Shown: piece by piece, positions 17,108-35,840 of the stretch
Numbering within the stretch: the stretch's first letter is position 1
Layout of the letters: each line of letters starts with the position of its first letter
DNA from: Thermoplasmata archaeon
GTDB lineage: Archaea > Thermoplasmatota > Thermoplasmata > Thermoplasmatales > Thermoplasmataceae
DNA length: 36,864 nucleotides
Direction of reading: 5' to 3'
Assembly (NCBI GenBank): GCA_021802365.1
Contig: JAKAAJ010000002.1
Location: forward strand, 1 to 36,864
Notes under the pieces: model-generated
Seen by the model: only the letters and a program-made list of their open reading frames with translations
What the model was told of the DNA's origin: nothing
Database searches by the model: none
Position numbers and translations under genes: made by a program

Positions 17108-17114
17108 AATACCA

Positions 17115-19528: not shown

Positions 19529-19680
19529 GTTATGTTAGACTGTATTTCCAGAGTTATTAAATTATTGTTGAAGTTGTAAGTGTGATATAAGATTTAAAAA
19601 TCATCTGGAATCTTCTCTCACTCTGAAGCAAGCGGATATTGAAGGTTAATTGATGTCAAAGTGAAATACGCCTCAAAAAG

Positions 19681-19689
19681 ATTATAATA
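19681..19689 (+). promoter_or_regulatory. TATA box of tRNA-Thr
   Basis: ATTATAATA lies about 24-31 nt upstream of the mature tRNA 5' end, with a purine-rich AAAAAG just before it that could serve as the BRE. This spacing puts the transcription start close to the tRNA 5' end. Confidence 0.55.
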
Positions 19690-19712
19690 CGCTGGCACCA
19701 TTTCCGCACATT

Positions 19713-19786
19713 GCCGTCGTAGCTCAGCCTGGTAGAGCGCGTGCTTGGTAAGCACGAGGTCGCGGGATCGAACCCCGTCGGCGGCT
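19713..19786 (+). tRNA. tRNA-Thr (anticodon GGT)
   Basis: Acceptor stem GCCGTCG/CGGCGGC (one T-G pair), D stem GCTC/GAGC, and anticodon stem CGTGC/GCACG with loop TTGGTAA give anticodon GGT. The T arm is GCGGG-ATCGAAC-CCCGT, and the discriminator is T. There is no encoded CCA. Its 3' end is duplicated 11.46 kb downstream, marking it as the integration site of the element that follows. Confidence 0.95.
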
Positions 19787-19788
19787 CT
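19770..19788 (+). repeat. attL-type direct repeat inside the tRNA-Thr 3' end
   Basis: The segment 19774-19788, CCCGTCGGCGGCTCT, recurs exactly at 31233-31247 in the same orientation. Allowing one missing C, the match extends back to GAAC at 19770. It covers the T-stem 3' strand, the acceptor 3' strand, the discriminator and two bases beyond. This is the part of a tRNA that integrating elements commonly copy. Confidence 0.8.
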
Positions 19789-20379
19789 ATTCCAACATTA
19801 CGAAGCCACACTATGAAATCTAAGTTCCTTTAATGAACAGTAACGGAATCAATAAATAACATATAACCCTACATAGGGTGTATTTCTGAAGCAGGTAGTG
19901 AAGAATCCTATGCTCAACTAGAGGTTTCAGGGGACTTTAGGGAAAATTATAATAATTATTGCGCAGTTTCAAGATTTTTTGGAAATACTTGGTAAAATAA
20001 ATCTGTGCAATTGGTGTGTCATAATCTCCCTTAACCTGCTGAATATAATTATGGAATAATTCGTTCTTGTTTAGTTAATCCGGTGTAATATTATCTCAAT
20101 TCTTTCAAGAGGTTGAAAGAACTTCTGCAATTTGCTATCAGTTTATTGAAGAATTTCTCGAAAGGAGCATTCTCGTTTATCTGTTTCACCCGTTGAGCAG
20201 AACTTCATAGTTTGTCAGAAATGATGGGTCTTTAAGATGCCCGAATCATCTTCACAAGAGGATTGATTTTAACCTTAAGACCATCCTTCTAAGTCAATAT
20301 ATCGCTCTGAATACTATACTTATTGCAATTATGTAATAAAACTTGGTGACTCATTTCACGAGGGGTTTCGCAAAATACT
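19789..20379. other. Gene-free left arm of the island
   Basis: About 590 bp between the tRNA and the first small island gene. This is where an integrase would normally lie. On the minus strand a stop-to-stop open stretch around 20090-20205 (Phe/Lys/Asn-rich, about 35 codons) and several shorter broken stretches occur, with no recombinase signature (no R..HxxR..Y set). It may be decayed coding sequence or plain spacer. I see no RNA gene. Confidence 0.4.
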
Positions 20380-20745
20380 TTATTTTAAAAATTTATTCTT
20401 AATGTATAAAGTCAGCGGACCAAATAGTGTATGGTTGGATACATCAACTACTGCTATCTTTAACCCGGGGATAGAGATACTTATTGATTCTTGATAATTG
20501 TCCATTGCTGCGAAATCGACATGATTTAAATTCATAATTCCCTTTAGCTCTTCTTTAATTACCGCATCGGAAGGATACCGAGTTGCGCGAAAAATAACTC
20601 CATTTGCCCAAAGAAGTCTTAATGTTGAAATTCCTGACTTGGAGGCCCCTTTGGACAAACTTTCACCAAGTTCTTTTGGCGAATTAAATTTGAGTGCACT
20701 TCGAAATATTATTTTATCATAAGGAACAAATTCCACATCTACCAT
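20380..20745 (-). CDS. Small protein of unknown function (island)
   Basis: 121 aa, soluble, with alternating beta/alpha character and no metal or nucleotide motif that I recognise. It opens with MVDVEFVPYDKIIFRSALKF and ends with LFGPLTLYIKNKFLK. A strong ribosome binding site GGAGAGGT precedes the ATG. It lies 27 nt downstream of the winged-helix gene and is probably co-transcribed, so the two may form a regulator/partner pair. No function is assigned. It could be an effector-binding or anti-regulator partner, but nothing in the sequence proves this. Confidence 0.7.
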   Translation of the reverse strand: MVDVEFVPYDKIIFRSALKFNSPKELGESLSKGASKSGISTLRLLWANGVIFRATRYPSDAVIKEELKGIMNLNHVDFAAMDNYQESISISIPGLKIAVVDVSNHTLFGPLTLYIKNKFLK

Positions 20746-20772
20746 AAGTCATACCTCTCCAGATAGCAAAGG

Positions 20773-21285
20773 CTATTCTAATAATAATTCGTCTGGATCG
20801 CCTTCGTCAAATGAATCTTCAATGTATCCAGTACTTGTTTCGAGCCTCACAAGAAAATTATTGTTTAAAGAATTCTTATAATTAATCAGATTTCTATCCA
20901 ACATATTTTTGGGGTGCCTTTCTTCGAAATCTTCTAAGTATTCAGACATGGCATCTTCCATTATCGAGCTACCTTGTCGATCGTCAAGAACTGCATAAGC
21001 TAACAAAGTTAACGCAATGAAACTTTTGCTCCTAGAAACAACTACATATGAAGGGTGTTTTTTGTTTTTATTTGTTTTGCGTAGTAATCCAATTCCTTCC
21101 AACCTTACAATTGCATCTTTAACCGATGGCATTGAACTCTCCGTAAGTTTAGAAAGATCAGATTGGCTATATGTAGACGTCGGGTCCGCCACAAGTTCTT
21201 GCAAAACCCTAACAATTACGCTATTTCCTAGCAAGCCACCAAAAGGCATTTCAATGGAGTCATTGTCTCCAAATGTTTTAGACAT
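20773..21285 (-). CDS. Winged-helix DNA-binding protein (island)
   Basis: 170 aa. Residues about 20-90 read as a winged helix-turn-helix: GNSVIVRVLQELVADPTSTY, then SQSDLSKLTESSMPSVKDAI, VRLEGIGLLRK, and a basic wing with TNKNKKHPSYVVV. A helical region follows (about 90-140), then an acidic C-terminus ending DEGDPDELLLE. This looks like an archaeal MarR/ArsR-type regulator with a C-terminal oligomerisation or sensing segment. It probably controls island genes, or its own operon with the downstream 121-aa gene. The ATG at 21285 lacks a strong ribosome binding site. The family assignment beyond the winged-helix fold is open. Confidence 0.75.
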   Translation of the reverse strand: MSKTFGDNDSIEMPFGGLLGNSVIVRVLQELVADPTSTYSQSDLSKLTESSMPSVKDAIVRLEGIGLLRKTNKNKKHPSYVVVSRSKSFIALTLLAYAVLDDRQGSSIMEDAMSEYLEDFEERHPKNMLDRNLINYKNSLNNNFLVRLETSTGYIEDSFDEGDPDELLLE

Positions 21286-21359
21286 TAATACTTCAATGAA
21301 TTAGGATAAAAAAATCTTTCTATTGTAAATTTTTTCTTACTAATTGCACATTTTGCCTT

Positions 21360-21638
21360 TTAGCGATATCTATGAGACTTTTGACCGTGATGCCAAAGCA
21401 TCTTACCGTATGATCGTAGTATGTTATATGCGGCGACGGTATCTTCCACAACAATAACCTCACCACGCCCATCATTCTTTACGGAAATTAAACATTGATA
21501 TTTCGCAATAAATATGTCAGCATCAATGTGTTTTCCGTTGCATTTGAGTTTAAATTTTTTATAGGAGACTGTACCACCAAATCTCAATAGAATAGATAAT
21601 ATCTCAAGTTCAGAGTCTGTTGAGTTACAAACTGACAA
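21360..21638 (-). CDS. Small hypothetical protein, possible winged helix (island)
   Basis: 92 aa, starting with TTG at 21638, preceded by AAGGGGT at suitable distance; no ATG is available upstream in frame. The N-terminal part ELEILSILLRFGGTVSYKKF looks like the first helices of a winged helix and is followed by beta-strand-like segments; the C-terminus is basic (WHHGQKSHRYR). It could be a compact DNA-binding protein or antitoxin-like regulator. I give it no function. It lies 234 nt after the end of the 939-aa gene in the transcription direction and may have its own promoter. Confidence 0.5.
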   Translation of the reverse strand: MSVCNSTDSELEILSILLRFGGTVSYKKFKLKCNGKHIDADIFIAKYQCLISVKNDGRGEVIVVEDTVAAYNILRSYGKMLWHHGQKSHRYR

Positions 21639-21871
21639 TACTGTTACCCCTTAATGAATGTTTGATTTCACATAAAATAATTATCAGTTTAAAATTATAT
21701 CGTTGTTTTCGGCAGTGATTGTATGTGCCAGTAACATTCGGTGGAAAAATTACCATAAATATATGCTCGTGAGATCACACCTTCCTAAAGGTAGGCGCAT
21801 AAAAACAATAGATCGATGTTAATCTTCTCCATATCTAAACCATAAGAATACCATCACTTTATTAAAACCCG

Positions 21872-24691
21872 TTAAAGTATACTGGAAATAGATAATGAAA
21901 CATCTAATATTTCTTTCACTATGTCTCGTATATTTTTATTCTCACGTTCTGGCATTATTCCTTGACTTCGTAACCCCTCTTCAATTGATTTTAACACTGC
22001 ATTTTTCCCTAAGCCTGAAATTTGACTGTATATTTTTAGGCAGAGTTCTGTTGTGGAGCCTGCTGAAAACTGTTCACACAGATATATGTTAATTTTTTTC
22101 TTCGTTTCTTCAGCCATGGCATCATTTCTAGAAAGAATAGAGTCTTCTGGAATGTTAGGAATCACATTCATGATTCCTCCATAGTCTGAATCAATTATAG
22201 CAGCAACCAGATCAGAAATCCCTATCTTACCAAGTTTCCTTATATTTGTAATGGCATAAAGGGCGGCTAATTTTTCCTTAGGCAAAACTTCTTCAGCCAA
22301 ATTTCTTATGGCGATATAGGGAGAAATCTCATTCCCTTGGGTATCCATAATTACTGATGTCATCTGAGATGAGGCAGACACTTTTGTCAGATATACCGGG
22401 TAGTCACTGTGGTGTCTCTTCCTTAGTGCTGCTCTAACAACTTTTTCAAACTTAGATGAAAAATCAGAAAATGTCATGTTTTCAGGTATAATACCAATTC
22501 TAGTGTAGGTACCAGCAGACGTAACCTTTATGAGATTATTGAATGATTCATCTCTTTCGCCAATAGCTATTTCTCTTTCTGCCTCTATGAGTTCCACAGA
22601 ATCGGATATGGTAGATATAACTGGCACTGTGCCTGAACCTTTACTGGGCACTGTTACTAAATATGATTCTATAAGGTTTCCAGATAGCATTCTTAGTATC
22701 TGTTCCCTCCCTATTCTCTTCTTGAAAATTTTTGCCATTATTAAATCGATTTTTGGATAATTCTCTTTAGATTGAATTTTTTTATAATCCGTCATAATTT
22801 GTTTCATCATTGGAGACATAAGTGAAGGCAAATATCTTATGAACTGGCCCTGGAGTAACCTAGAAACAAATTCCGAATAGACAGGGTCTTTTTCATCATT
22901 GGCATCACGAAACTTTACGGCATCAGATATCGTCGATAGTCTATTCTCTGGCAAAGATTCCTGAGATATGTTAATAAACTTGTAAAGAGCTAGCAGAGCA
23001 TCCTTCATTTCCAAGACTTGCTTATTTACTGTTGCTGCTTCTGGAGAACTTACTTCATTGAAGAAGATTAGTAGAAGAATGGTATGAAATATGTTTTTAT
23101 CCTGAATTTTCTCTGGAGTAACGACCATTTTCTGGGAGAATTTTATGTACTTATCTAATACCTTAGATTCCGGTTCAAATGCTAAACGTAACAGTTCGTT
23201 ATTAAACTGTAACTGCTTAATCTGATAAGGAAAATTATTGTTTTTAAGGTACTCTAAATATTGACCCTCAAATGCAATGATTTTTTCAAGCGAACTCCCT
23301 CTCCTAGTCAGTTCTCCCAAGTTAAACTCTTGCAAACTGGCAATTATTCTTGAGAAATTTTCTTCAGAAAAGTTTAAGGTTTTAAAATTGTGTTTAAGCA
23401 AAAATCTACTCAGGCCAATTAATGCAACTTCATCTTCTAAAATCCCCTTAAAACAATTCCTTGTGATTTCTTCATTCCAAGTACTGTAGTAGAGGAGCTT
23501 AATGGTCTCTCTGCTTGCACCAATTCTTGAAGATAGAAAATTAAGATATTCGTTCTCAAAATTCAAGATACTTTCTGGTATAAAGTCCCTAGATACTATC
23601 TCAGGATAATCTATTTCGAAAGCGTCAAGGAAACGGCTAAATCTATTTATATACGATTGAAGCATATTCATTTTATTCTCAAGTTTTAGCTTTAACTTCG
23701 ATAATGAGAACGCATCCATTTCAGCTATTGCATCAGTCATGATCTTCGAAACCCATTCTTCTGGATATTCGAATTTGATTGTAATAGTCTCGTTGAAAAT
23801 TAGGTAGTTTACTAGAGGCTTAATACTACCTTGCTTCTTAAGCTGATTCAACAAATTGGTATTTTCGTCTTCTATATTTACCGCTTCGAAGTAAAAAAGC
23901 TTAAAAATTAACGGGTCTATCAACTTGCAAACATCTACCTGTTCGGCAATCCTATCAATCCAGAGTGAGCTAGGTAGATGATCTCCGTTAAACTCTTGAA
24001 TGTATTTTTCAAGTGCATTAGGGAGCTCAAGATTATATCTAATTAGCGCACGTTTGAGGCTCTCCTTGAAAGTTTGTAGATCTTTAAGGTATTCTAGGGA
24101 TTCCCTGTAAAGACGCCCTAAGGATGAAAACGTTATTGATGCTTCAACTACTGATTTAATGCCAGCAATTACTCTTCCTTTGAATTCAGAGAATATAGAA
24201 AATGCATTATTCTGCAGTTCAGATCCAAACATTTTGGAATGCAGACTGCCAACATCAGTAATACTATCCTTTATCCGTTCGCTATTCCCCCTTAATGTTT
24301 TCCATTTGGTGTTTGTGAAGAAATTATAGGCCAGAAAACCATAAGGAATAAACGCAAGGACGTTAGCGAAAATGAATATCTTGTCTGAACTAATGAGTTT
24401 CAGAGTCAAAACATCGGCAACAAGTTGAGTGACAGCAACTGCTCCTACGATTATTAAAGCCCTATTTCTCAATGAATTTAAAATCTCATAAGAGTCTTTC
24501 ATGTCGTTAACTGCACTAGTTTGTTTCTTAAGAATAAACTCGAATGAATTGTCGAGCTTAACCGGCAAATCTTGAAATTCATCTGATAATCTTGAAAGTT
24601 CTGAAGTTAGTCTTCCAGAGGCATTTTCAACCTTTTCTCCAACTATTACAGGTGAGATTCCTGGATCTTTTACATTTTCTGGGTCCAACAA
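21872..24691 (-). CDS. 939-aa membrane-anchored helical protein of unknown family, defence-operon component
   Basis: I do not recognise this family. Residues about 25-75 are polar and coiled-coil-like. Two hydrophobic helices follow at about 78-100 and 104-126 and would form a membrane hairpin. The remaining 800 residues are mostly helical, Lys/Glu/Leu/Asn-rich and presumably cytoplasmic. I find no Walker A, no PglZ-type phosphatase, no nuclease and no TIR motif; a beta-richer segment with VTVPSKGSGTVPVIST occurs around residue 660. It begins with TTG, preceded by AAGGGG, 11 nt after the helicase stop, so it is translated from the same mRNA. This gene is distinctly AT-rich compared with chromosomal neighbours. 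Its fixed place behind a methyltransferase and a helicase suggests a dedicated structural or effector subunit at the membrane. Confidence 0.8.
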   Translation of the reverse strand: MLDPENVKDPGISPVIVGEKVENASGRLTSELSRLSDEFQDLPVKLDNSFEFILKKQTSAVNDMKDSYEILNSLRNRALIIVGAVAVTQLVADVLTLKLISSDKIFIFANVLAFIPYGFLAYNFFTNTKWKTLRGNSERIKDSITDVGSLHSKMFGSELQNNAFSIFSEFKGRVIAGIKSVVEASITFSSLGRLYRESLEYLKDLQTFKESLKRALIRYNLELPNALEKYIQEFNGDHLPSSLWIDRIAEQVDVCKLIDPLIFKLFYFEAVNIEDENTNLLNQLKKQGSIKPLVNYLIFNETITIKFEYPEEWVSKIMTDAIAEMDAFSLSKLKLKLENKMNMLQSYINRFSRFLDAFEIDYPEIVSRDFIPESILNFENEYLNFLSSRIGASRETIKLLYYSTWNEEITRNCFKGILEDEVALIGLSRFLLKHNFKTLNFSEENFSRIIASLQEFNLGELTRRGSSLEKIIAFEGQYLEYLKNNNFPYQIKQLQFNNELLRLAFEPESKVLDKYIKFSQKMVVTPEKIQDKNIFHTILLLIFFNEVSSPEAATVNKQVLEMKDALLALYKFINISQESLPENRLSTISDAVKFRDANDEKDPVYSEFVSRLLQGQFIRYLPSLMSPMMKQIMTDYKKIQSKENYPKIDLIMAKIFKKRIGREQILRMLSGNLIESYLVTVPSKGSGTVPVISTISDSVELIEAEREIAIGERDESFNNLIKVTSAGTYTRIGIIPENMTFSDFSSKFEKVVRAALRKRHHSDYPVYLTKVSASSQMTSVIMDTQGNEISPYIAIRNLAEEVLPKEKLAALYAITNIRKLGKIGISDLVAAIIDSDYGGIMNVIPNIPEDSILSRNDAMAEETKKKINIYLCEQFSAGSTTELCLKIYSQISGLGKNAVLKSIEEGLRSQGIMPERENKNIRDIVKEILDVSLSISSIL

Positions 24692-24702
24692 CGCATGCCC
24701 CT

Positions 24703-27700
24703 TTATTTAATGGATTTTTTTAAAAGACACCAGCAAATCCTTTTCAGGTTAACCTCCGCTGAAACAGATTCTGAGTTGGCGTCATTGTTATTGTAGGATT
24801 CTAGCACTTCATTTGCTTTGGATAAAAGGTTTCCGTCTTTCATAGCTTTGTATAGGGTTGTAACCACAGTCTGCCTTGCCCTCGCACTGTTGAATATTGC
24901 TGACAGTCTAATTCCTTCTGGTCCAGACTTCTGCAACTCTTCGTAAATTTCTCTTTCCTGCTTAGTTGTGCCAATTTTCCTCCCCTGCTGAATATCCTTG
25001 ACGCTTCGTTCAGTTTCTATTTTATTTTTTAGCCATGATTTCAGGGACTTAAAGTGAGTCATCATCTCCTTGTAATCAATTGTCTCTCCTCTATTATCAT
25101 ATCCCCCTTCCAGCATTATGTTTATGATCTCATTGGGACTTTGTAAAATTTCCTTCCCTTCATCAAAAAATTTCAGCATCCAGTAATAATTTCTACCTTC
25201 CATGAACAGTATAAAGAGGCCATTCCTGCTTGATTGCTTATATGCACCAATCCCTATAGGCAGGTCCTGGAGCCATTTCTCTCCTTTATTGTTGATGATC
25301 GCTGCAAGTGTTTCTATGGGGTCTTTTGTGAACTGCTCAACTTTTTCCATTAACACATCAAGGACCTTTGGGTCATTTCTCGCTATAGCTTCCTGTATCC
25401 CAAAGTCTCTTGGCGATGCATCCTCCCCAAGAGTGGTGGAGTCTATTCCTATCGTATTGCTGATCAAATCGATCCTCTTGTACAATTTTCTCATTAGCTT
25501 AAGGAAGTGGGAAAGGCTCTTTGGATCATCCTCATTACCATTCACAGGCAGGATATTGACTAGGTATACATCTTTGTAGGTTGAACCTATTCTGTCTATC
25601 CTTCCCGCCCTTTGTATTAGGACTACTGGGTTCCACGGAAAATCGTAATTTACAACATACTGTGCATTCTGTAGGTTCTGACTTTCACTGAGCACATCGG
25701 TACTGACTATGTAACCGCCGTTCCTCATGAAATCCTTTATCACGGTTGTTTTATCCTTTGAATGACCTGTTCTGTCCCTGCATCGAGACCCAGTGGTAAG
25801 CATGACATCTTCTTTAACCACTCTTTTCAAATGCTCATATAAGTATTCAGCAGTTGCTGAATACTGAGTAAACAATATAACACCGTTGTTTCCGTGGATA
25901 TCTATACTTTTCACCCTATCTAAGGTCTGTTTTAGTTTTTCATCTTCTCCTGGAAGTTCAGATAGTATTGATTCAATAACCTCAAGATCTTCGTTGCATT
26001 TTTTAAAGAACTCTCCTATCTCATTTTTTTCAAGTTTGCACTTTCCCATAATCTCTTTGTACTTGCCGGAGAACATTTCTTCCGGATTCGGTGGATGCCA
26101 TTCCTCATCCTCGTCATACATTTCAGTGAGGTCTCCTTTCATTTTAGGGGGGACAAAATAACTTTTCTTTATTGCATAATCCTTGGAAATTTCTATATAT
26201 GTCCTAAGCGTTTCCATCGTTACCCTGAATGCATGGAGACTACTTTCGAGCCTCTTGAAAAAATTAATCCTTATAACCACCTTTACGAGCGACTTGAGAG
26301 ATTCCCTCTTCTCATACATGGCCGAGGCTGAAATCGGCGTCCCGTCGGGAAGTTTAAGTTTATCACCGAGCTTGTCTATAGCATAATCGTAATAAACAAA
26401 ACTCATGGAATCAAAAAAACCGTTAATCTTTTCATAGTCTATCTTAGTAATGTACCTGTTCCTAGGGTCAGTGTCCAATTTTCGAACGGGGAAATTCAAG
26501 GTGTCCTTGCTCAAGGCCCTGGCCAGTTCTCGGGATGTCCTTACAACAAATCTGCGGAGAATAGGGTCCATATCTACTGGCTGTTCGTTGATCCACAACT
26601 TCTGCTGCACCGAGAAATAACCTTTGAGGGATGGGCTAATATCCGATATGGCATCGTCTCTCAGGTATAGAGAGAGAAGTGCATATAGATCCATAAGGCT
26701 GTTGTTTATCGGTGTTGCAGTTAAAAGAACGATCTGTTTACCGCCGGTAGCCATCAGGTCGCGCAATGCCCCGTACCTGTTCGAAGATTGCGATCTAAAA
26801 TAATGGGCTTCATCTATGATGATGAAATCCTTCTCAGCATATTCCTTTACCGTCTGATCTGGGTGACTTGATAGGTATTCTGAGGAAATGGAATCTATGT
26901 GCACATGGGTTTTATCCATTTCATCTTTCCATGTGGTATCCAGGGCACTCTTTGGAGCTATGAGTAGGGGATTTTTTCCTTCATTAATTGCCATCTGAGT
27001 TAGATTGATCCCTACTCTGGTCTTTCCAAGGCCGGTGGAGTCTGCTATAACAACTCCATTATACGAACCCAATATTCTTGATGCCTGTATAGTTGAAAGT
27101 ATCTGATGGGGAAACAGTGTTTTCATCAGGTTATTCGTTTTAGCCTCGTCAATTTGCGGGCGGTACACTTCGTAAAGGGCCTTTGCCAGTACTTCATAAG
27201 GGCTGTGTGTAGTGACGTAATTCTCAAGGAGTTCTAGGAACTCATTTTTGAAATCAACGGAATTGTCCTCTCTCCAGAGGCTCAAAAACCAGTTGATTAG
27301 TTCAGTTACACCTTCCCTGTCGGTTGTAAGCATGTTGAGCTCCCTGTTTCCGGCAAGTCCTCCGCCGGTGAAATTGCTGGACCCTACCGTGGCGAATCCG
27401 TTCACAATATCTGAAAATGAAGGATGCGCACCCATGTAAGCCTTTCCGTGAAAGAATCTACCTTTCACCTTTCTTATCTCTACCTCAGGTCTCTTGAAAT
27501 ATTCATCCGCATCCTGAAGAGAAAAGAAATAGCTTTCTTCATCCTCGTTCTTCATTACCTCATTAGAAAGAACATCACCCTGTTCTGACTTGAATGCCTC
27601 ATCGAATGATTCAAGGTTCTTTATCACTTCTTCCTCGAATTTAATGCTCTCCGATGGCTCCCGACCCAACAAAAGCTTCAGGGGCTTATTTTTTAAGCCC

Positions 27701-27879
27701 TCCCTGATACTTCTGTAGCCTTCAAGATTGAAATATGCGGATGCTATGGCCAATTCATCTGAATGCTTCATTTCATCCTTGAGAATTGATGCAAGTGATT
27801 TATTTGAATTGTCAATTATCCTTGACAGTGACCTCATCTCCTCTCTTAAGTAGTCTGTCAGCTTTGATAAGTCGATCAT
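24703..27879 (-). CDS. SF2/SNF2-like helicase with N-terminal PLD nuclease domain
   Basis: 1058 aa. Residues about 30-230 form a phospholipase-D-type domain with one HKD-like set: HGKAYMG (His144, Lys146), GSSNF (166-170) and downstream Glu180. In helicase-fused proteins such domains are usually DNA nucleases. The motor follows: Q-like FPHQ (256-259), motif I STGLGKT (281-287), motif II DEAH (356-359), motif III TATP (387-390), and motif VI QRAGRIDRIGS (756-766) after the IVSTDVLSESQNLQ motif V region. The C-terminal about 250 aa may be a coupling domain. The layout equals the restriction/translocation subunit of modification-linked defence systems. ATG at 27879 overlaps the methyltransferase end by 68 nt; ATG at 27837, after GAGAGGAG, is an alternative. 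All motifs are intact. Confidence 0.9.
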   Translation of the reverse strand: MIDLSKLTDYLREEMRSLSRIIDNSNKSLASILKDEMKHSDELAIASAYFNLEGYRSIREGLKNKPLKLLLGREPSESIKFEEEVIKNLESFDEAFKSEQGDVLSNEVMKNEDEESYFFSLQDADEYFKRPEVEIRKVKGRFFHGKAYMGAHPSFSDIVNGFATVGSSNFTGGGLAGNRELNMLTTDREGVTELINWFLSLWREDNSVDFKNEFLELLENYVTTHSPYEVLAKALYEVYRPQIDEAKTNNLMKTLFPHQILSTIQASRILGSYNGVVIADSTGLGKTRVGINLTQMAINEGKNPLLIAPKSALDTTWKDEMDKTHVHIDSISSEYLSSHPDQTVKEYAEKDFIIIDEAHYFRSQSSNRYGALRDLMATGGKQIVLLTATPINNSLMDLYALLSLYLRDDAISDISPSLKGYFSVQQKLWINEQPVDMDPILRRFVVRTSRELARALSKDTLNFPVRKLDTDPRNRYITKIDYEKINGFFDSMSFVYYDYAIDKLGDKLKLPDGTPISASAMYEKRESLKSLVKVVIRINFFKRLESSLHAFRVTMETLRTYIEISKDYAIKKSYFVPPKMKGDLTEMYDEDEEWHPPNPEEMFSGKYKEIMGKCKLEKNEIGEFFKKCNEDLEVIESILSELPGEDEKLKQTLDRVKSIDIHGNNGVILFTQYSATAEYLYEHLKRVVKEDVMLTTGSRCRDRTGHSKDKTTVIKDFMRNGGYIVSTDVLSESQNLQNAQYVVNYDFPWNPVVLIQRAGRIDRIGSTYKDVYLVNILPVNGNEDDPKSLSHFLKLMRKLYKRIDLISNTIGIDSTTLGEDASPRDFGIQEAIARNDPKVLDVLMEKVEQFTKDPIETLAAIINNKGEKWLQDLPIGIGAYKQSSRNGLFILFMEGRNYYWMLKFFDEGKEILQSPNEIINIMLEGGYDNRGETIDYKEMMTHFKSLKSWLKNKIETERSVKDIQQGRKIGTTKQEREIYEELQKSGPEGIRLSAIFNSARARQTVVTTLYKAMKDGNLLSKANEVLESYNNNDANSESVSAEVNLKRICWCLLKKSIK

Positions 27880-29707
27880 CTACTAGCTCAACAAATTCTT
27901 TATAAAATTCTTTAATAGGGTAGTTTTCTATAGATAGCATTCTTAATATTTGGGTATCAAGTTCTCTTCTATCCTTCATCTGGACTTCATCGAAGTATCT
28001 CTTTACGTCTCTTTTAAACATGCTGTTTATGGTCGATAGATCAATTTTTTGAAAATCTGGTACTGGCATCTGTTCATAATCGTCTACCATGATCTCACCA
28101 ACACCTCCTCCTCCACCTAGTCTTCTCAAGTAAAGTTCCATTGTAAGGTAAAAAGGGGTTGAATTTAAGTATGATTCTATTCCTTTTACTTTCGGTCTTA
28201 TCGTATAAAGTGTATGATCACAAATTACCGGTTCTTTTGATTCTGGAATAAAGAATCTATCCATAACATACATTGGAAGTATGAAGTTTGCAGGCTCTAG
28301 ATCATTCAAGGAATACCAGTTTTTTCTTCCAGATACAGAAGGAACATTGTGATACCCTATGACTAGTTCTTTCCTGCCTCTTATTGAAATCTTGTGTGAT
28401 TCCCCCCATTTTATGTACTTTTTTGTCATGTTACCTGGTAACTTGGTATACAAACACAAGGTCTTCATTTCACTAATGGTGTATGACTTAAGATCTTTTG
28501 TAGTTCTTACCAGTGGCTTGACATCTGAGCGATCTAAAACAAATCTCTCCCTGCCCTCATTTTCAATGTATATGAGTCCCTGTTCCCTTAGTTCATTCTC
28601 GTTCTTTGCACTGACACCCCAATCCTCAAACTTCTTAGGATCAGCAAGATAATCCGCTTCATATTTCGATGAAATATCCTTCATGTAGAAGAAATCGTTT
28701 GCACCTGTTTTAATACCGAATTTGATCTCAGCAAATTCACAAAACTTGTGAGTCAGCTTGGGATATATCTTCTCCATAAACATCTTTGGTGCCCGCAGAT
28801 AAAACCATTTTCCGGGTCTGAGTGTGGTCCTGTCCATACTGATTTTTCTTATGACACTACCGGAGGCATAGGTTTCCATATAAGTGAAGTCTATATCGCC
28901 TTGGGCCATATCATTTCCATACAGCGAAATAATTGTGTTTATATCCGCCTTAAATGGTCTATATTTCTGCCCATATATTGAGATAAGTCGGCTTTTCAGG
29001 TAATCCTGAAGTTTCTCACCGTATGTGGTTTCAAGCCACTTGTCGGATGAGATTACGGAAACGCATCCCTTTGGCTTCAGAAGCCTCAGGGCCCTTGCAA
29101 AGAAATATACATAAATGTCTGATTTCTTGTCGAAATGCAGGGGATCGCAATATGTCCTGACATAGTATTTTTTTCTCTCATCGCCAATGGTTTCCTGTCT
29201 AACATAGGGCGGATTCATAACAACAATATCAGCAGGTTTCACCATATAGCTTTCAATCACGTTTGGATTCAAACCATACTTCCTTAGATTTTCAGTGTGC
29301 AGGGCAATTCTCTTCCTTAGAGTGCCCTTGTTCTCATGGTCGTGCTCGTTGGAGTACTGTTCTATAAGCTTGTCCACAAGATCTTTCTCTTCCTCAATTT
29401 CAGGAGTTAAACGTTTTTGAAAACTCTGAAGCTCCAAGGAATCAGGTATGTCGACTATCTTGAATTCCAGGTTCGGCAAAGGTACCGGAACCTTCTGATC
29501 AATAATCATTGATAGCCACAGTCTTAAACGAGCTATCTCGACAGCCTCTGGTTCAATGTCAAAGCCGTAAAGATTCTTGTGTATTTCCTTCTTGTACTCG
29601 TATGGATCTGATTTCCATCCGGCAATGGAGTCAGCCTCGGAAATTAATGATACGATCTCCTGCATCATCACTACCAGAAATCCACCAGATCCAACAGCAG
29701 GATCCAC
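27812..29707 (-). CDS. N6-adenine DNA methyltransferase, catalytic and C-terminal part (frameshifted from upstream ORF)
   Basis: 631 aa from the GTG at 29707. Motif I DPAVGSGGFL is at residues 2-11, then YGFDIEPEAVEIARLRLWL, and the adenine-specific catalytic motif NPPY at 165-168. Residues about 320-560 are a likely target-recognition domain (LNSTPFYLTMELYLRRLGGG near its end). Read upstream past the GTG in this frame, the sequence continues as open protein (DELKKSKRIDEIRTFRDKLL before motif I), which is the normal lead-in of Eco57I-type enzymes. The preceding ORF supplies the rest of the N-terminus in another frame. The gene is therefore one methyltransferase broken by a -1 frame change between about 29722 and 29848. 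It would methylate adenine in a DNA site and probably marks self DNA for the helicase/nuclease. Confidence 0.85.
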   Translation of the reverse strand: MDPAVGSGGFLVVMMQEIVSLISEADSIAGWKSDPYEYKKEIHKNLYGFDIEPEAVEIARLRLWLSMIIDQKVPVPLPNLEFKIVDIPDSLELQSFQKRLTPEIEEEKDLVDKLIEQYSNEHDHENKGTLRKRIALHTENLRKYGLNPNVIESYMVKPADIVVMNPPYVRQETIGDERKKYYVRTYCDPLHFDKKSDIYVYFFARALRLLKPKGCVSVISSDKWLETTYGEKLQDYLKSRLISIYGQKYRPFKADINTIISLYGNDMAQGDIDFTYMETYASGSVIRKISMDRTTLRPGKWFYLRAPKMFMEKIYPKLTHKFCEFAEIKFGIKTGANDFFYMKDISSKYEADYLADPKKFEDWGVSAKNENELREQGLIYIENEGRERFVLDRSDVKPLVRTTKDLKSYTISEMKTLCLYTKLPGNMTKKYIKWGESHKISIRGRKELVIGYHNVPSVSGRKNWYSLNDLEPANFILPMYVMDRFFIPESKEPVICDHTLYTIRPKVKGIESYLNSTPFYLTMELYLRRLGGGGGVGEIMVDDYEQMPVPDFQKIDLSTINSMFKRDVKRYFDEVQMKDRRELDTQILRMLSIENYPIKEFYKEFVELVDDRLIKADRLLKRGDEVTVKDN

Positions 29708-29718
29708 AACCTTAACAC

Positions 29719-30849
29719 TTAGAAGTTTGTCTCTAAATGTCCGTATCTCGTCAATGCGTTTGGATTTCTTGAGTTCATCAGGTAGAGATCGATTCCATCT
29801 TTTAGTTCTGTATCGTCTTGGGTGTATTTGTCCTGTAGAGTCAGATACCTAGCAAGGGCACGTCTACAGATAAAAGATACAACATCCTTGGGGGTGTAGA
29901 ATGTTCCCTTTTCTCCCCTCTCTTTTTCCAGAAGGAGATTTTCGAAAACTGTACCAGTAAGCGCCGGGTCAATACTAACCTCAACCTCAAGTGGAGATGT
30001 CTCGTCAACAGTGAAATTGTATTCGTTGAAAAAATCCCTAGCTTTCAGGAACGCTTCATTGAGTATGTTCTCTATCTCACTTTCTTTGTCAACTGTGAGG
30101 TATTCTTCTCTATCGAAAAGTGATCCATTCAGGAAAGGTATTCCATCTATTTTTCCAGTATTAAGGCCCTTGTAATAGAGATGGCTGAGTTCCTTGTAGT
30201 TCTGAATTGAATCAATATATTTTCTGTCGTTTTTCAACCATCCCTTTTTCTGCAAAAAATACAGGAACATAAGTCTGCCAAGGAATTTCTGGGCAAATGA
30301 CCTTGTATTAATGCCTAAATATGGTTCTAGTTTCTTTAGCAGTTCCTGAAAAATATCTCGATATGTAAAGAAGAATTCATCTCTAACCTTCTGGTACGGG
30401 AAAAACTGTTCGTTATAGTTCTTCAGCATTTCCACCTTATCTGGATTGAATCTTATGGAGTCAAGAACAACCCGATCTGTATGGTAAATCTGATCCGAGA
30501 GAAAGAGGATCTTAGCTTCACCGTTGAATCCTATTCCCGGCAGAATGCTCACGTATGAGTCACGACTGTTGGTAAAAATAACCAGTGGGCTCAAGAGATT
30601 ACTTTTCTTCCAAGCCCTGGCTATTGACACACATCTACCTCTGGAGAACTCTGAATCCTTTACCTCAATGAGAACTATGTCTATAAGCCCGTCCGAGAAT
30701 AGTCTATAAAATTTTACGGGATTTGTATTTGGGGGGATGATCTTCTGTTCTCTCAACAGACTCAGTGGTATTTCCTGTAGTTTAATAGGATAACCCAAAT
30801 CCTTCAGGGTCTTTTCCCAGAATTGAAGATTGAAATTCTGTGACGGCAA
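29719..30849 (-). CDS. N-terminal part of the same Eco57I-type methyltransferase (frameshifted)
   Basis: 376 aa from a TTG start at 30849 with GGGGAG before it, 4 nt after the zinc-ribbon stop. Residues 185-330 have the helical block typical of large type IIG/Eco57I methyltransferases (GRLMFLYFLQKKGWL at 191-205), then GTVFENLLLEKE and GTFYTPKDVVSFICRR, which normally precedes motif I by about 40-60 residues. The ORF then leaves the family frame and stops at 29719. Residues 50-65 read FSDGLIDIVLIEVKD; D57 with E62-V-K64 resembles a PD-(D/E)xK nuclease site, so this could be a fused restriction domain, but the match is short. Together with the downstream ORF the protein would be about 1000 aa, a normal size. 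Confidence 0.82.
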   Translation of the reverse strand: MPSQNFNLQFWEKTLKDLGYPIKLQEIPLSLLREQKIIPPNTNPVKFYRLFSDGLIDIVLIEVKDSEFSRGRCVSIARAWKKSNLLSPLVIFTNSRDSYVSILPGIGFNGEAKILFLSDQIYHTDRVVLDSIRFNPDKVEMLKNYNEQFFPYQKVRDEFFFTYRDIFQELLKKLEPYLGINTRSFAQKFLGRLMFLYFLQKKGWLKNDRKYIDSIQNYKELSHLYYKGLNTGKIDGIPFLNGSLFDREEYLTVDKESEIENILNEAFLKARDFFNEYNFTVDETSPLEVEVSIDPALTGTVFENLLLEKERGEKGTFYTPKDVVSFICRRALARYLTLQDKYTQDDTELKDGIDLYLMNSRNPNALTRYGHLETNF

Positions 30850-30853
30850 AACT

Positions 30854-31021
30854 TCACTCCCCTCTCTTAGGTATTGTATAACTCTTACCTTCTGGACTCA
30901 GGTAATGATTAAAGAAATTCTCACATATGTCACATTTGTACCTGCTTACGGTGTATACATTGAAATACCATTTTTTTAATGGAGCAGAAGTTATCTCAGA
31001 GTCACACATTGGGCATTTCAT
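30854..31021 (-). CDS. 55-aa zinc-ribbon protein, first gene of the island operon
   Basis: ATG at 31021 to TGA at 30854-30856. The protein opens with MKCPMCDSE and has a second pair CDIC at residues 30-33, separated by a short beta-like stretch with aromatic residues (WYFNVYTVSRYK); this is a classic two-knuckle zinc ribbon. It ends with a basic YTIPKRGE. The stop lies 4 nt before the methyltransferase start, and the TTG of that gene uses a GGGGAG ribosome binding site located in this gene's last codons, so the two are coupled. A TATA-like box about 25 nt upstream predicts leaderless transcription. It may be a nucleic-acid-binding regulator or a small subunit of the complex; this is inferred. 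Confidence 0.72.
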   Translation of the reverse strand: MKCPMCDSEITSAPLKKWYFNVYTVSRYKCDICENFFNHYLSPEGKSYTIPKRGE

Positions 31022-31038
31022 GGAGTTGAATGATGAAT

Positions 31039-31048
31039 CCTTTTAAGG
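31039..31048 (-). promoter_or_regulatory. TATA-like promoter of the island operon
   Basis: On the minus strand this reads CCTTAAAAGG, with AAAA just upstream as a possible BRE. Its centre lies about 23 nt before the zinc-ribbon ATG. No ribosome binding site precedes that ATG, so a leaderless mRNA starting near it is likely. The element itself is palindromic. Confidence 0.4.
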
Positions 31049-31229
31049 TTTTTCCCATAAATTTAGATGTATATTCATGACCAGAATTTAGAGAAGCAAT
31101 ATTACCTGTAGACGATACAACTATTCACGGCAAAAAAGAGATCGAATCCCAGTTTGAGTTCTTTGAGCATAGAATATCATGAACGTGTACAATTAGAATA
31201 TAAATATAAGGCTTCGAACTATTGGATAA
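31049..31229. other. Right arm of the island, no intact gene
   Basis: On the plus strand, 31080-31189 is an open stretch of about 34 codons bounded by stops, protein-like in composition (it contains DDTTIHGKKEIESQFEF) but without a start codon. It lies just inside the right repeat, where an element-end gene fragment could survive. I cannot identify it. No RNA gene is seen. Confidence 0.35.
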
Positions 31230-31247
31230 GAACCCGTCGGCGGCTCT
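31230..31247 (+). repeat. attR-type direct repeat (displaced tRNA-Thr 3' end)
   Basis: CCCGTCGGCGGCTCT at 31233-31247 equals 19774-19788 exactly, and the preceding GAAC matches with one C missing. The rest of the tRNA is absent here, so this is a tRNA 3' fragment and not a second tRNA gene. It marks the right junction of the integrated element. Confidence 0.8.
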
Positions 31248-31467
31248 TATATATTCAATAAAATTCAGATGTTTATGAATGCCCTGAGGTCAGTTTTTAT
31301 GATAGAAGATGATAATCAGGAAGACTGGTTCTGCTATAATTGCTTAAATTAGCAAATTAACTGATTATGAAGAATATTTGCACTGTAACTTTTTAGGTCC
31401 AATATATAAAACAATGCGATTAAAGGTAAGTTGCAATCTTTATCGAGGATTGTAAGATAATTGAATC

Positions 31468-31965
31468 ATGAGAATAATGGTTGCCTTTGATGGGACAAGC
31501 GCTTCTGTGAATGCATTGAATATAGGTCTAAATTTCAGGAATCTGGTTGAAAGATATCTGATAGTGTATTGCAAGGATGAAAGGGAGGAAATAATTGCCT
31601 TCAACGGTGTTTACAGTCAGGAATTCTACAACGAATTGGCTGTAGCTGATGAAAAGGATGCAGAGAGCATAATTTCCAAGGCTTTGAGCATTTCACAAAG
31701 AGCCGGGGTGAATCCTGAAACCTTGGTAATCGATGATCCTGGAAAGGATATAGCAGACGTATTGCTCAATGAAGCATATGACTTCAAAGCTGATCTAATA
31801 GTTATGGGCACACGCAGGCTGGGGTCTCTGGAAAGGTTTTTCCTGGGTTCTGTAAGTTCACGGGTAATCAAGCAGAGCAAGGTTCCTGTACTTGTGGCTC
31901 CCCCATCTGATGAGGTAAAAACAAGTTCAGACGTAAAGACCAGTGACAAAGAAAATTCCGCATAG
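31468..31965 (+). CDS. Universal stress protein (UspA family)
   Basis: 165 aa. The N-terminal strand IMVAFDGTSASVNALNIGL contains the conserved aspartate. The C-terminal nucleotide-binding region reads LIVMGTRRLGSLERFFLGSV followed by SSRVIKQSKVPVLVA, close to the ATP-binding consensus of UspA proteins. The last 15 residues are a polar Ser/Lys/Asp tail. Family members are cytoplasmic dimers linked to stress survival; the precise role is unknown. It is the first chromosomal gene after the island's right repeat and stands alone, about 300 nt before the permease gene. Confidence 0.92.
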   Translation: MRIMVAFDGTSASVNALNIGLNFRNLVERYLIVYCKDEREEIIAFNGVYSQEFYNELAVADEKDAESIISKALSISQRAGVNPETLVIDDPGKDIADVLLNEAYDFKADLIVMGTRRLGSLERFFLGSVSSRVIKQSKVPVLVAPPSDEVKTSSDVKTSDKENSA

Positions 31966-32264
31966 CCTTTCCAGTTCATAAACAGTTAACTGTGGGTACT
32001 GAAGAAATTACAAAATTCTCCTGAAAAACTTACTCTAACAGTAAATGAAAGAGAAAAATGGGAATATTTAACTATTTTCATTCCACTAATATGCAGAGTA
32101 AATTTTAAAGGGCATATTCCAAATATTCAAAAAATGCACAAATACCCGTTTTTGTAATATTTATATTTCAAAATAATTACATATATACTTTAAATTTAGT
32201 AATATATAATACATTTTCCGACAAATTGAAAACACTTAAGTAGGATGGTGCATAATAAATTAAA

Positions 32265-33710
32265 ATGGATTCTATATCTGCATCAGAACCAAAACTGAAA
32301 AAGGGCTCAGTAGGGTTCTGGTCTCTGGTAGGCCAGACTGTCGCATTCACAGCTCCTCTCGCTTCAATAGTCACATCGCTGACAGGTGCTGCATTTTATG
32401 CGAAAAGTGCGCTCCCCCTTGCAATTCTCATTTCAGTAGTGAGCGGTATTATCTGGGTGAACACCCCGTATCAGTTCTCAAGGAAAATAGCAAGCGCAGG
32501 CGGATTCTTCACATTCACCAGAAAGGCGATAGGTCCGAAGTATGGTCTCTTTGACGGGCTAATTTATCTTATGTTTGAATATGCTATTCTTGCGAATACA
32601 ACACTATTTTTTGCAGGTGTTCTCATACCCGGTATACTTTCAAAATTCTTCGGGATCACCGCCCCGACATTTCTCTGGATACCTGTCCTTATAATATTCG
32701 TAATGATTTTCACATTACTTCCATACATAGGCATAAAGCCTTCAGTAAGGTATTCCCTAATAGGGTCTCTGCTGGAGATCTCAATAATAATAGTACTTGG
32801 CATCGCAATTGTTTATCTATCCGGAAGTCACAACACATTTTCTGTGTTCACACCAGATCTCTCAGGAGGAATTACTCCTTTGTTTGAAGGGATCGTTCTG
32901 GGAACATTCCTGATGACAGGAGCCTCCGGTGCGGTTTACATAGGGGAGGAAGCAAAAATGCCCCGGAAGAATATCAAAAAAGCCCTGATCATAAGTTTCA
33001 TTCTTACGGGCGCAACATTTCTCTTTATTTCCTATGCCTTTACAATAGGATGGGGGCCTTCAAAGATGTCCGGGTTTGCAGGGCAACTCATACCGGGGCT
33101 GATACTCGCCAACAGATTTCTGGGGTTTCCATTCCTTATAATCATGGTTGTTCTCCTTTTCAACAGCGTATTCGTTTCTATGGTTGCTCCTCTTAATGTT
33201 CTTGGGAGGATGGGTTATTCCTTCTCCAGAGATGGCGTAATGTCAAAATGGTTTGTTAAAATCCATCCAAAGTACAGGACTCCATCAAACGCCATCCTCT
33301 TCATGGGACTTTCAAGCATTGCAGTAAGTGTTATTGCAGGACTTATTATGGGCCCGTATTACGGCTATCTCTTCCTTATTACAGTAGCGAGCCTTGCACT
33401 ATTTGCAGGGCATATGCTGAGTGACTTTGCACTTCCTTTCCTCTACAGAAAGCTCAGGGAGTTCAGGGCAGGTCCTCACTTATTACTGCCACTGATTTCA
33501 CTTGTGATTCTGGGCTTTGGAATCTATTACAGCATAATACCTCCGTCCTATCCTTATCTTCAGGCTACAGTGGCAATGGTTGTATTGATGGTGGCAATTG
33601 GAATGTATGTGGCATATTTCAGCAGGAAAAACAGAGATACAATTTCATCAATAGGCATGATCGAGGAGGAACACCCGAAAGGAAAACTTACAGGAGCCGA
33701 AGAAGAATGA
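32265..33710 (+). CDS. APC-superfamily amino-acid permease
   Basis: 481 aa with about 12 transmembrane helices. The first helix region has GFWSLVGQTVAFTAPLASIV, the usual unwound-helix area of APC transporters, and AGGFFTFTRKAIGPKYG follows helix 2. A cytoplasmic loop with GEEAKMPRKNIKKAL lies between helices 6 and 7, as in the family. The short tail is acidic. It probably imports an amino acid or amine by proton symport, useful for a heterotroph living on peptides in acid; the substrate is not readable. The 300 bp upstream are very AT-rich without a gene, with TTAAG about 27 nt before the ATG as a likely TATA element. It is monocistronic. Confidence 0.93.
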   Translation: MDSISASEPKLKKGSVGFWSLVGQTVAFTAPLASIVTSLTGAAFYAKSALPLAILISVVSGIIWVNTPYQFSRKIASAGGFFTFTRKAIGPKYGLFDGLIYLMFEYAILANTTLFFAGVLIPGILSKFFGITAPTFLWIPVLIIFVMIFTLLPYIGIKPSVRYSLIGSLLEISIIIVLGIAIVYLSGSHNTFSVFTPDLSGGITPLFEGIVLGTFLMTGASGAVYIGEEAKMPRKNIKKALIISFILTGATFLFISYAFTIGWGPSKMSGFAGQLIPGLILANRFLGFPFLIIMVVLLFNSVFVSMVAPLNVLGRMGYSFSRDGVMSKWFVKIHPKYRTPSNAILFMGLSSIAVSVIAGLIMGPYYGYLFLITVASLALFAGHMLSDFALPFLYRKLREFRAGPHLLLPLISLVILGFGIYYSIIPPSYPYLQATVAMVVLMVAIGMYVAYFSRKNRDTISSIGMIEEEHPKGKLTGAEEE

Positions 33711-33777
33711 AAAGGTTGAAAGTTCAATTTTTCACAATTTTACGGATTCATAACTTTTTTATTGATATAATGATTAA

Positions 33778-33786
33778 TATTATAAA
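33778..33786 (+). promoter_or_regulatory. TATA box of the 66-aa membrane protein gene
   Basis: ATTATAAAT lies 22-30 nt upstream of the ATG at 33808. GTGAG directly before the ATG may add weak ribosome binding. This matches the leaderless pattern seen elsewhere in the window. Confidence 0.5.
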
Positions 33787-33807
33787 TGAAACATCAATAT
33801 GTGAGAT

Positions 33808-34008
33808 ATGGATAAGAGAACTAAGTATATCGGAATGCTGGTCGGATTAATTCTTGTAATTGTAGGGGGTTATTTTATCGGGACTGTATTCCATGCCGTT
33901 GCTACAACACTTAAAAGTGAACTGGGTCCTCTTGAGGCCGGGGTAATACTTCTGCTGGTTGGTCTCATAATTCTTGTTGGGTTCGTTTCAAGACATTTCC
34001 GGAGATAA
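33808..34008 (+). CDS. Small two-helix membrane protein
   Basis: 66 aa: a short basic start (MDKRTKY), a hydrophobic helix (about 8-32), a polar link with SELGPLEAG, a second helix (about 42-60), and a basic end (SRHFRR). The positive-inside rule places both ends in the cytoplasm. The family is unknown and no catalytic residues stand out. A good TATA box upstream and a proper start support it as a real gene. It is followed at 62 nt by the YbjQ-like gene, which has its own promoter-like sequence. Confidence 0.7.
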   Translation: MDKRTKYIGMLVGLILVIVGGYFIGTVFHAVATTLKSELGPLEAGVILLLVGLIILVGFVSRHFRR

Positions 34009-34069
34009 TTGAAGAAACTCACAAATTAAAAATTCATATACTCCGCAAATATATAATTCTAGATAATAA

Positions 34070-34432: not shown

Positions 34433-34444
34433 ATGGAATTATAA

Positions 34445-35137: not shown

Positions 35138-35142
35138 TAGAA

Positions 35143-35574: not shown

Positions 35575-35690
35575 CCAAATAGTATATGGAAAATATTATT
35601 AAAGTTAAGTCCTGAACAGCTTTCTGCTACTGCATGTTCAGTAATGCCATGATAGAAATAAAGATAATATCCCTGGTTATATGGCATGAC

Positions 35691-35837: not shown

Positions 35838-35840
35838 TAT

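Follow-up and report, generated by a model that had tools for sequence, protein, structure and literature searches.

Among the closest described counterparts of the locus analyzed here are the type-2 BREX-related (BR) or Hma systems, which, according to PMC12839542, combine an HKD-Snf2 helicase fusion with an N6-adenine methyltransferase (MTase). The same source describes backup effectors as a theme in BREX and related systems. A second counterpart is the type I-like set DnmA-YeeB-YeeC of B. subtilis, presented in PMC7261158 and PMC9973331 as an MmeI-like N6-adenine MTase that lacks a nuclease motif of its own and is accompanied by a separate superfamily II helicase. For the archaeal combination of an MTase with an HKD-Snf2 helicase, no established system name was met in the literature listings surveyed. 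We have studied one such combination in a window of 36,864 nt (the whole stretch of DNA analyzed) from a Thermoplasmata archaeon, where it occurs together with a zinc ribbon and a 939-aa protein. Judged from its sequence, and with a probability that we place at roughly 0.55, the island would carry a type I-like restriction-modification system joined by an auxiliary that was recruited on its own, evolves fast, is anchored in the membrane and most likely serves as a backup effector or guard.

The island and its genes

The features of the locus are collected in Table 1. The initial annotation of this DNA does not mention that the genes sit in an insertion, flanked by tRNA-Thr on one side and by a copy of the tRNA 3' end on the other. 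In the nearest genome compared (G001, 81% complete), two contigs end exactly at the island joints, 19788 and 31233, and the island interior has no match in this 81% complete assembly. Queries with two integrases of related loci returned nothing significant within the island; the best match (E 0.11), a stretch of 21 residues at 19886-19948, close to the tRNA border of the island, is indistinguishable from chance. Among the small ORFs at that end, the 170-aa one gives weak matches only, the best being from PADLOC (E 0.00077).

Table 1. Features of the island and its borders.
Feature	Position	Strand	Remarks
tRNA-Thr (GGT)	19713-19787	+	ARAGORN call
Left 15-nt direct repeat	19774-19788	+	tRNA-Thr 3' end plus one base
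Inserted island	19774..31247		11.46 kb; between tRNA-Thr and the copy of its 3' end
Three small ORFs (92, 170, 121 aa)	20380..21638	-	tRNA end of island; role unassigned
939-aa family protein	21872..24691	-	N-terminal hydrophobic hairpin; TRIGIIP at 730-736
PLD(HKD)-Snf2 helicase-nuclease, 1058 aa as called	24703..27879	-	Pfam PF00176, PF00271, PF13091
MTase C-terminal part, 631 aa	27812..29707	-	Pfam PF07669, E 6.5e-30
MTase N-terminal part, 376 aa	29719..30849	-	Eco57I-type N6-adenine MTase; ends at frameshift
Zinc ribbon, 55 aa	30854..31021	-	Relative before MTase in related loci
Right 15-nt direct repeat	31233-31247	+	attR-like; copy of tRNA-Thr 3' end

The initial annotation had proposed a four-gene minus-strand operon, and the zinc ribbon, the Eco57I-type MTase, the PLD+Snf2 helicase and the 939-aa ORF are indeed all present, but the MTase is split by a frameshift. 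The junctions of 4 nt between zinc ribbon and MTase and of 11 nt between helicase and 939-aa gene, the latter with a GGGG stretch before the 939 start, stand as described, whereas the 68-nt overlap of MTase and helicase rests on the most upstream helicase ATG. This start has probably been called too far upstream, and the ATG at codon 15 (27837, 26-nt overlap) or the CTG at codon 18 (27828) seems likelier, because in all seven relatives (L002, L023-L027 and L063, with helicase ORFs called from the first ATG/GTG/TTG) the overlap is 17 nt and the helicases align from window codon 18. In the same seven relatives the MTase is a single ORF of 1008-1051 aa. In the window its two ORFs lie in different frames and are separated between the FYTP region and motif I; the C-terminal part holds DPAVGSGGF (motif I) and NPPY (motif IV), and both pieces match type IIG profiles in PADLOC. 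Since the split form is found on one contig only (P0125) among the matches listed, the break could stem from an error in sequencing or assembly. The broken MTase frame may mean that the system is inactive in this copy, or that the sequence is incorrect here.

The motifs of the helicase are intact (HxK...GSSN, Walker A, DEAH and QRxGRxDR), and its HKD domain is the only evident nuclease, because the N-terminal ExK is not conserved among the seven MTases compared. These MTase, motor and nuclease domains, with their motifs, bear out the earlier view of a modification-linked restriction-type set. At the profile level the helicase matches PADLOC C3a139 'HKD+Snf2' (E 6.4e-48) and HmaA (E 1.7e-21), and reaches 125.7 bits with NCBIfam NF042964 (phospholipD_antiphage), far under the cut-off of 1100. 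The zinc ribbon has no Pfam match above its cut-off; counting the window, nine close-family loci have readable upstream DNA, and in five of them a relative of it precedes the MTase.

A recurrent core and its accessories

Close relatives of the helicase occur in 9 of the 77 family genomes, and zinc ribbon, Eco57I-type MTase and HKD-Snf2 helicase together are a recurrent set in archaea, predicted to be type I-like restriction-modification. The 939 gene lies beside the helicase in only two of the nine close-family core loci with readable downstream DNA. Among the seven loci without it, one is decayed (L065) and two (L063 and L064) offer only about 2.3 kb downstream. The four parts are therefore not the obligate unit that had been supposed. 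In related MTase/HKD-Snf2 operons other accessories are found at or near the place of the 939 gene, namely a Swt1-like HEPN protein, HNH plus DndB-like genes, HTH/IrrE with DUF4411, and AbiEii.

In G009 the four genes follow one another as in the window (zinc ribbon-MTase-helicase-939), and the record of this genome, CP009479.1, was the one locus returned by a scan of genome contigs. Identity to the window there is 46.8% for the helicase and 53.0% for the C part of the MTase, and 24.5% for the 939 protein. Faster divergence of the 939 protein than of the helicase (and of the MTase where compared) is seen in 3/3 comparisons, two of which assume co-location from equal longest-contig sizes (P0002/P0007, 22442; P0004/P0023/P0143, 16954). 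This sign is suggestive only: P0134 and L038 share the size 5793 although L038 carries no MTase. P0003 (25745) has no equal-size partner among the matches listed.

The 939-aa family and its neighborhoods

The 939-aa protein is composed of N-terminal helices, a hydrophobic hairpin at about 75-125, a helical body and a small alpha+beta domain at about 673-778, which contains the TRIGIIP stretch and is possibly a ferredoxin-like domain with an R-[IF]-G-x-x-P motif. This motif and at least one N-terminal hydrophobic segment are present in all nine family sequences. The membrane anchor claimed for the protein is probable, with the hairpin in place and the second hydrophobic segment of the window protein marginal (1.59 vs a threshold of 1.6). 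The earlier designation of the protein as the new part of the set holds. No profile match above cut-off was obtained, and neither a catalytic motif nor a convincing fold was found. Four remote members were recognized with profile E values of 7.5e-28 to 8.8e-13. Among the controls, the lowest E value was 3.4e-5 over 2000 shuffled sequences and 0.0031 over 4 reversed ones. A search of 400 genomes drawn with profile A2, circular for members already in A2, returned no further ones. The 939-aa proteins are a small, unnamed family with few known relatives.

Surroundings are readable at six loci of this family (window, L002, L038, L039, L040 and L041), and restriction genes lie near five of them: the MTase/HKD-Snf2 core twice, a type I system (HsdM-HsdS-HsdR, L041), a type II one (MvaI/BcnI nuclease plus MTase, L039) and GmrSD (L040, on a 6.8-kb contig). 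A family found mostly without MTase or helicase neighbors had been named as the outcome that would refute the initial annotation; this is not what is seen, an MTase being nearby in four of the six loci, three of which have a motor as well. The remaining member, that of G420 (L038; 46% identity), has as neighbors an IS66-like transposase and a 528-aa ORF matching RecD2-HHH, and no restriction gene was seen on its 5.8-kb contig. Two of the adjacencies are in G428 and prove little, because this genome is crowded with restriction genes (15 N6_Mtase, 9 GmrSD_N and 3 MvaI/BcnI matches). In G431 a type I system adjoins the family member, and the genome has only two N6_Mtase matches. The link of the family to restriction genes is moderately supported, and the location of relatives mostly near differing restriction genes suggests that such defences have acquired this helper repeatedly.

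Interpretation and comparison with known systems

In the mechanism that we favor, the Eco57I-type MTase would recognize and mark a specific sequence, the HKD-Snf2 protein would translocate on DNA and cut unmarked DNA with its phospholipase-D-type nuclease, and the zinc ribbon, small and conserved, would accompany them, perhaps as a regulator. The 939-aa protein would act when restriction is engaged or inhibited; a backup or guard role seems the most likely because related operons carry other accessories at or near the same place. What the sequences establish is the gene content and its conserved order, the intact motifs, the borders of the island, the relationship within the 939 family and its faster divergence, whereas all activities, the insertion into the membrane and the backup role are inferred. 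Against this stand the seven of nine readable core loci that do without the protein, the slight weight of the G428 adjacencies, the G420 member, the lack of a catalytic motif or convincing fold and the broken MTase in this copy. More tentatively, the family might constitute a new class of membrane-anchored restriction auxiliary, a guard shared across type I, type II, GmrSD-like type IV and MTase/HKD-Snf2 systems that detects failed restriction and, acting from the membrane, incapacitates the cell. Membrane-based responses are familiar from abortive systems in bacteria. If the auxiliary role is right, differing restriction systems of acidophilic archaea would share an exchangeable membrane-bound partner, DNA restriction would be linked to a membrane-based response, and the family, marked by a defined motif, would be open to testing. 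The core, for its part, documents a widespread archaeal MTase/HKD-Snf2 set.

The frameshift could be real decay, leaving the MTase pieces as pseudogenes of a system that is dead here. The position of the split and the related copy in G008 (L065), decayed into many pieces, point that way, but the remaining motifs are preserved, neither the helicase frame nor the 939 frame is interrupted and the split form is confined to one contig among the matches listed, where an error may be at fault; we hold such decay to be a real prospect, short of even odds, and one compatible with the backup-effector reading for the family at large. Rather unlikely, in our estimate, is that the 939 protein is ordinary cargo of mobile islands in which restriction genes also gather. 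The location at a tRNA, the G+C of its gene (0.352, below 0.394 for the MTase and 0.414 for the helicase), the transposase beside the L038 member and the crowding of G428 would all fit, and against them must be set the 11-nt junction with its GGGG stretch, the retention of the gene after the helicase in G009 despite deep divergence, and the type I neighbor in MTase-poor G431. The model of the initial annotation, in which a core subunit would tie the restriction complex to the membrane and entering DNA would be read and cleaved there, draws on the hydrophobic N-terminal segments of the family and on the close junction with the helicase; we regard it as improbable given the core loci that lack the protein (seven of nine, with the reservations on L063, L064 and L065 given above).

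Membership of the type-2 BR or Hma systems appears very improbable. As in the description of these systems (PMC12839542), the island has an N6-MTase and an HKD domain (PF13091) fused N-terminal to a Snf2 helicase (PF00176/PF00271), with HxK...GSSN intact and the HmaA match already mentioned, but the DUF499 AAA+ ATPase and DUF3780 have no Pfam match among the island proteins and the MTase is of the Eco57I type, with no Pfam match to DUF1156 in either piece. The island had been set apart from BREX and DISARM before, and this holds. For BREX, neither PglZ nor a BrxC-type ATPase was found among the island proteins (Pfam and NCBIfam; PADLOC among the matches listed), and the PglX model NF033452 scores 54.9 bits vs a cut-off of 500, on the C part of the split MTase only. 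For DISARM, DrmB was not found (PADLOC among the matches listed; NCBIfam), the single DrmA match sits on the helicase core of the HKD-Snf2 protein (PADLOC among the matches listed; none in NCBIfam) and the DrmD helicase model reaches 115.5 bits vs a cut-off of 610 (NCBIfam). A type ISP or type IIG single polypeptide was rejected as well: in the window and in relatives alike, a gene distinct from that of the MTase encodes the HKD nuclease and the motor, and the MTase ExK is not conserved.

DnmA-YeeB-YeeC resembles the island in that an MTase without its own nuclease motif stands beside a separate superfamily II helicase; it differs in that no YeeC-like (T5orf172) gene has been noted in the island, where the nuclease forms part of the helicase protein as a fused HKD domain. 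C3a139 and phospholipD_antiphage share the helicase domain architecture, each being a single-protein model and not a gene set. A sister archaeal operon, assigned by sequence in L050, L067 and L068 and by gene sizes in L051 and L053, with L066 cut, gives no match to the 939 family at its loci and has a related zinc ribbon near four of the six (L050, L051, L053 and L066). It likewise pairs an Eco57I MTase (1209-1244 aa) with an HKD-Snf2 helicase (29-33% identity) and differs in carrying a toxin-antitoxin-like pair, a 382-aa HTH/IrrE protein and a 163-165-aa DUF4411 protein, between MTase and helicase.

Gene set and recurrence of the core

The genes concerned lie on one strand of the window, and two of the junctions described for the four-gene defence operon of the initial annotation are found there: 4 nt between zinc ribbon and methyltransferase (MTase), and 11 nt between the helicase gene and the gene for the 939-aa protein, where a GGGG stretch lies upstream of the TTG start of the latter. 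Two other details have to be revised. The MTase, annotated as a single gene, is present in two pieces in different frames, coding continuing in the other frame shortly before motif I (stop-to-stop frames); in seven relatives (loci L002, L023, L024, L025, L026, L027 and L063 of the compared genomes) it forms one ORF of 1008-1051 aa, and the frameshift is supported by DNA alignment with L023, L024, L026 and L027. The split may be an error or decay, which are indistinguishable because this form (P0125) is listed for one contig only, of 38,338 bases and taken as the window's own. In genome G008, a related MTase and helicase copy has decayed to many short frames (L065, 6077-12120). The 68-nt overlap described between MTase and helicase depends on the choice of the most upstream ATG: the overlap is 17 nt in 7/7 relatives, and the helicase ORF alignment begins at window codon 18, a CTG, with an ATG at codon 15.

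Genes of the window and members of the 939-aa protein family in other genomes
Feature	Length	Position	Strand	Genome	Locus
Zinc ribbon (ORF)	55 aa	31021-30854	minus	window
Eco57I-type N6-adenine methyltransferase, piece 1	376 aa	30849-29719	minus	window
Eco57I-type N6-adenine methyltransferase, piece 2	631 aa	29707-27812	minus	window
HKD/PLD domain and Snf2 helicase protein	1058 aa	27879-24703	minus	window
939-aa ORF	939 aa	24691-21872	minus	window
939-family member	885 aa			G009	L002
939-family member	945 aa			G420	L038
939-family member	968 aa			G428	L039
939-family member	1160 aa			G428	L040
939-family member	936 aa			G431	L041

The core formed by zinc ribbon, MTase and HKD-Snf2 helicase belongs to a type that recurs. 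Helicases closely related to that of the window (at least 43% identity) were found in 9 of 77 family genomes, two of them broken or partial (G008 and G440, the latter outside the loci read), and a sister type (29-33% identity) in 7 of 77; G009 has both, and either type occurs in 15/77 in all (E<=1e-40) and in 13 of the 389 genomes of the phylum sample. Protein matches reach Bathyarchaeota, Nitrososphaerota, Caldarchaeum and Parvarchaeum (organism names as the sources give them). The HxK...GSSN, Walker A, DEAH and QRxGRxDR motifs are intact in the window helicase and five relatives. Judged from sequence, the HKD domain is the only evident nuclease of the core, because an ExK in the N-terminal part of the MTase is not conserved among seven sequences (present in the window and L027, lacking in the other five). 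The window zinc ribbon has no Pfam match above cut-off; a relative lies upstream of the MTase in five of nine close-family loci (window, L002, L023, L025 and L026; L064, cut within the helicase, left out), was not found in the readable upstream DNA of L024, L027, L063 and L065, and is present near four sister loci (L050, L051, L053 and L066). This small protein is common to both MTase/helicase families, with MKCPxC...YTIP in each of the five sequences inspected.

What accompanies the helicase varies among loci. Of nine close-family loci whose downstream DNA can be read, two (window and L002) have a 939-family gene next to it; the gene is absent there in L023, L024, L025, L026, L063, L064 and L065, a count in which L063 and L064 offer only about 2.3 kb, L065 is decayed and L027, ending inside the helicase, was dropped. 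After the helicase, L063 has small ORFs, none with a match above cut-off, and L064 a weak rhomboid-like ORF below it. A Swt1-like HEPN gene overlaps the helicase end by 35 nt in L026 (10766-11740, genome G207). In the sister operon, HTH/IrrE and DUF4411 proteins are nested between Eco57I MTase and HKD-Snf2 helicase (by Pfam in L050, by similarity in L067 and L068; L066 is cut), a toxin-antitoxin-like pair within a restriction operon; L051 and L053 hold ORFs of matching sizes there, judged by size alone. In L052 the MTase and helicase genes overlap and have none between them. More remotely, an AbiEii gene precedes a helicase relative (25% identity) on a Thermococcus profundus plasmid, and a TaqI-like specificity protein and two hypothetical genes lie upstream of another on a Nostoc plasmid.

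The 939-aa protein family

Pfam, PADLOC, PHROGs and NCBIfam yield no match at E<=0.001 for the 939-aa protein, and its family is new to these libraries. Among 5.8 billion proteins (7994 candidates scored) four were obtained, itself included, and members occur in 1/61 relatives, 1/389 phylum, 4/77 family and 3/400 class genomes (overlapping sets). Remote membership was assessed with a profile built from five close sequences only, which gave E-values of 7.5e-28, 1.5e-26, 4.6e-18 and 8.8e-13 for the four distant members, against 3.4e-5 for the best of 2000 shuffles, 0.0031 for the best of four reversed sequences and 6.2e-4 for the best unrelated ORF (174 background ORFs, six being family members); hhalign probabilities were 98.5, 98.3, 97.0 and 68.1%. 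By these values, the 1160-aa protein is the least certain member. All nine sequences share an R-[IF]-G-x-x-P motif and at least one N-terminal hydrophobic segment; a second segment in the window protein peaks at 1.59, just under the threshold of 1.6. In the AlphaFold model (from nine sequences; pLDDT 73.2, pTM 0.47) helices make up almost the whole protein apart from a small alpha+beta domain, about 673-778, which contains the motif and whose likeness to ferredoxin-like folds may reflect a merely common arrangement. Comparison with solved structures gave no match at E<=0.001.

The protein is also the fastest-diverging of the set in three of three comparisons: 24.5% identity with L002 (helicase 46.8%, C part of the MTase 53.0%), 49.9% with proteins presumed on one 16954-base contig (helicase 68.2%, MTase 71.2%) and 66.7% with those presumed on one 22442-base contig (helicase 86.3%), the last two pairings being assumed from shared contig size and possibly wrong. 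The G+C of its gene, 0.352, is below that of MTase (0.394), helicase (0.414) and flanks (0.43 and 0.412).

A restriction gene is present in 5/6 readable loci of the family and an MTase in 4/6. L002 (CP009479.1, archaeon clone ASS_A1) has the gene order of the window, followed by an HNH gene and a DndB-like gene. In L041, HsdM, HsdS and HsdR are followed by DUF3800 on the opposite strand and the 936-aa member. The 968-aa member is divergent from an MvaI/BcnI nuclease and MTase 650 nt away, with a SIR2-STAND protein and an integrase close by, and the 1160-aa member converges with GmrSD on a 6.8-kb contig. On the 5.8-kb contig of L038 the neighbours are an IS66-like transposase and an ORF of 528 aa that matches RecD2-HHH; no restriction gene was seen. 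The adjacencies in G431 and G009 are telling because only 2% and 5% of these genomes, by rough estimate, are less than 10 kb from an N6_Mtase match. The G428 pair says little. N6_Mtase matches number 2, 5, 15 and 1 in G431, G009, G428 and G420 (weak ones counted), and all nine GmrSD_N and three MvaI/BcnI matches are in G428.

A probable strain-variable island at tRNA-Thr

The 3' end of a tRNA-Thr gene falls at window 19787, and a 15-nt direct repeat at 19774-19788 recurs at 31233-31247. The nearest genome compared (G001; 81% complete, about 50 contigs) matches the window at 100% over 17001-19788 and 31233-36864 and nowhere between, its contigs C33 and C43 starting at 19788 and stopping at 31233, exactly on the joints. 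A strain-variable insertion would give this pattern, seen here as contig ends and not as a joined empty site. In G002, of the same genus, other sequence, with an HsdM, follows the same tRNA-Thr (L030 and L031 are the two stretches concerned); on a second contig the tRNA end is repeated over 46 nt inside the gene of an archaeal phage integrase, accompanied by HsdR and a primase-polymerase. The two stretches are probably one element, and the site has the look of a hotspot for insertions. Within the island of the window no integrase could be identified; 21 residues just inside the tRNA end (19886-19948) resemble the C-terminus of the integrase in L039, possibly by chance (E 0.11, non-significant). 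This side of the island is likewise low in G+C (0.347), and three small unassigned ORFs lie at 20380-21638, one with weak regulator-like profile matches.

Proposed mechanism and known systems

The MTase would provide site recognition and self-marking, and the HKD-Snf2 protein translocation and cutting. The 939-aa protein would be a membrane-anchored auxiliary, taken up by MTase/HKD-Snf2 and other restriction systems and most likely serving as backup or guard. The analysis establishes the genes with their order and motifs, the island boundaries and the protein family, whereas all activities and the placement in the membrane are inferred. No paper describing the gene set was met in the open-access literature searched, and the word helicase is absent from the main text of an archaeal restriction survey (PMC10609329). 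Backup effectors within or beside the same operons are a theme described for BREX and BREX-related systems (PMC12839542). The nearest studied MTase-plus-helicase design encountered, DnmA-YeeB-YeeC, has been proposed as type I-like, and the reported B. subtilis tests gave no restriction or phage protection; in Vibrio crassostreae, deletions of the dnmA and yeeB homologues led to higher sensitivity to some phages (PMC7261158, PMC9973331).
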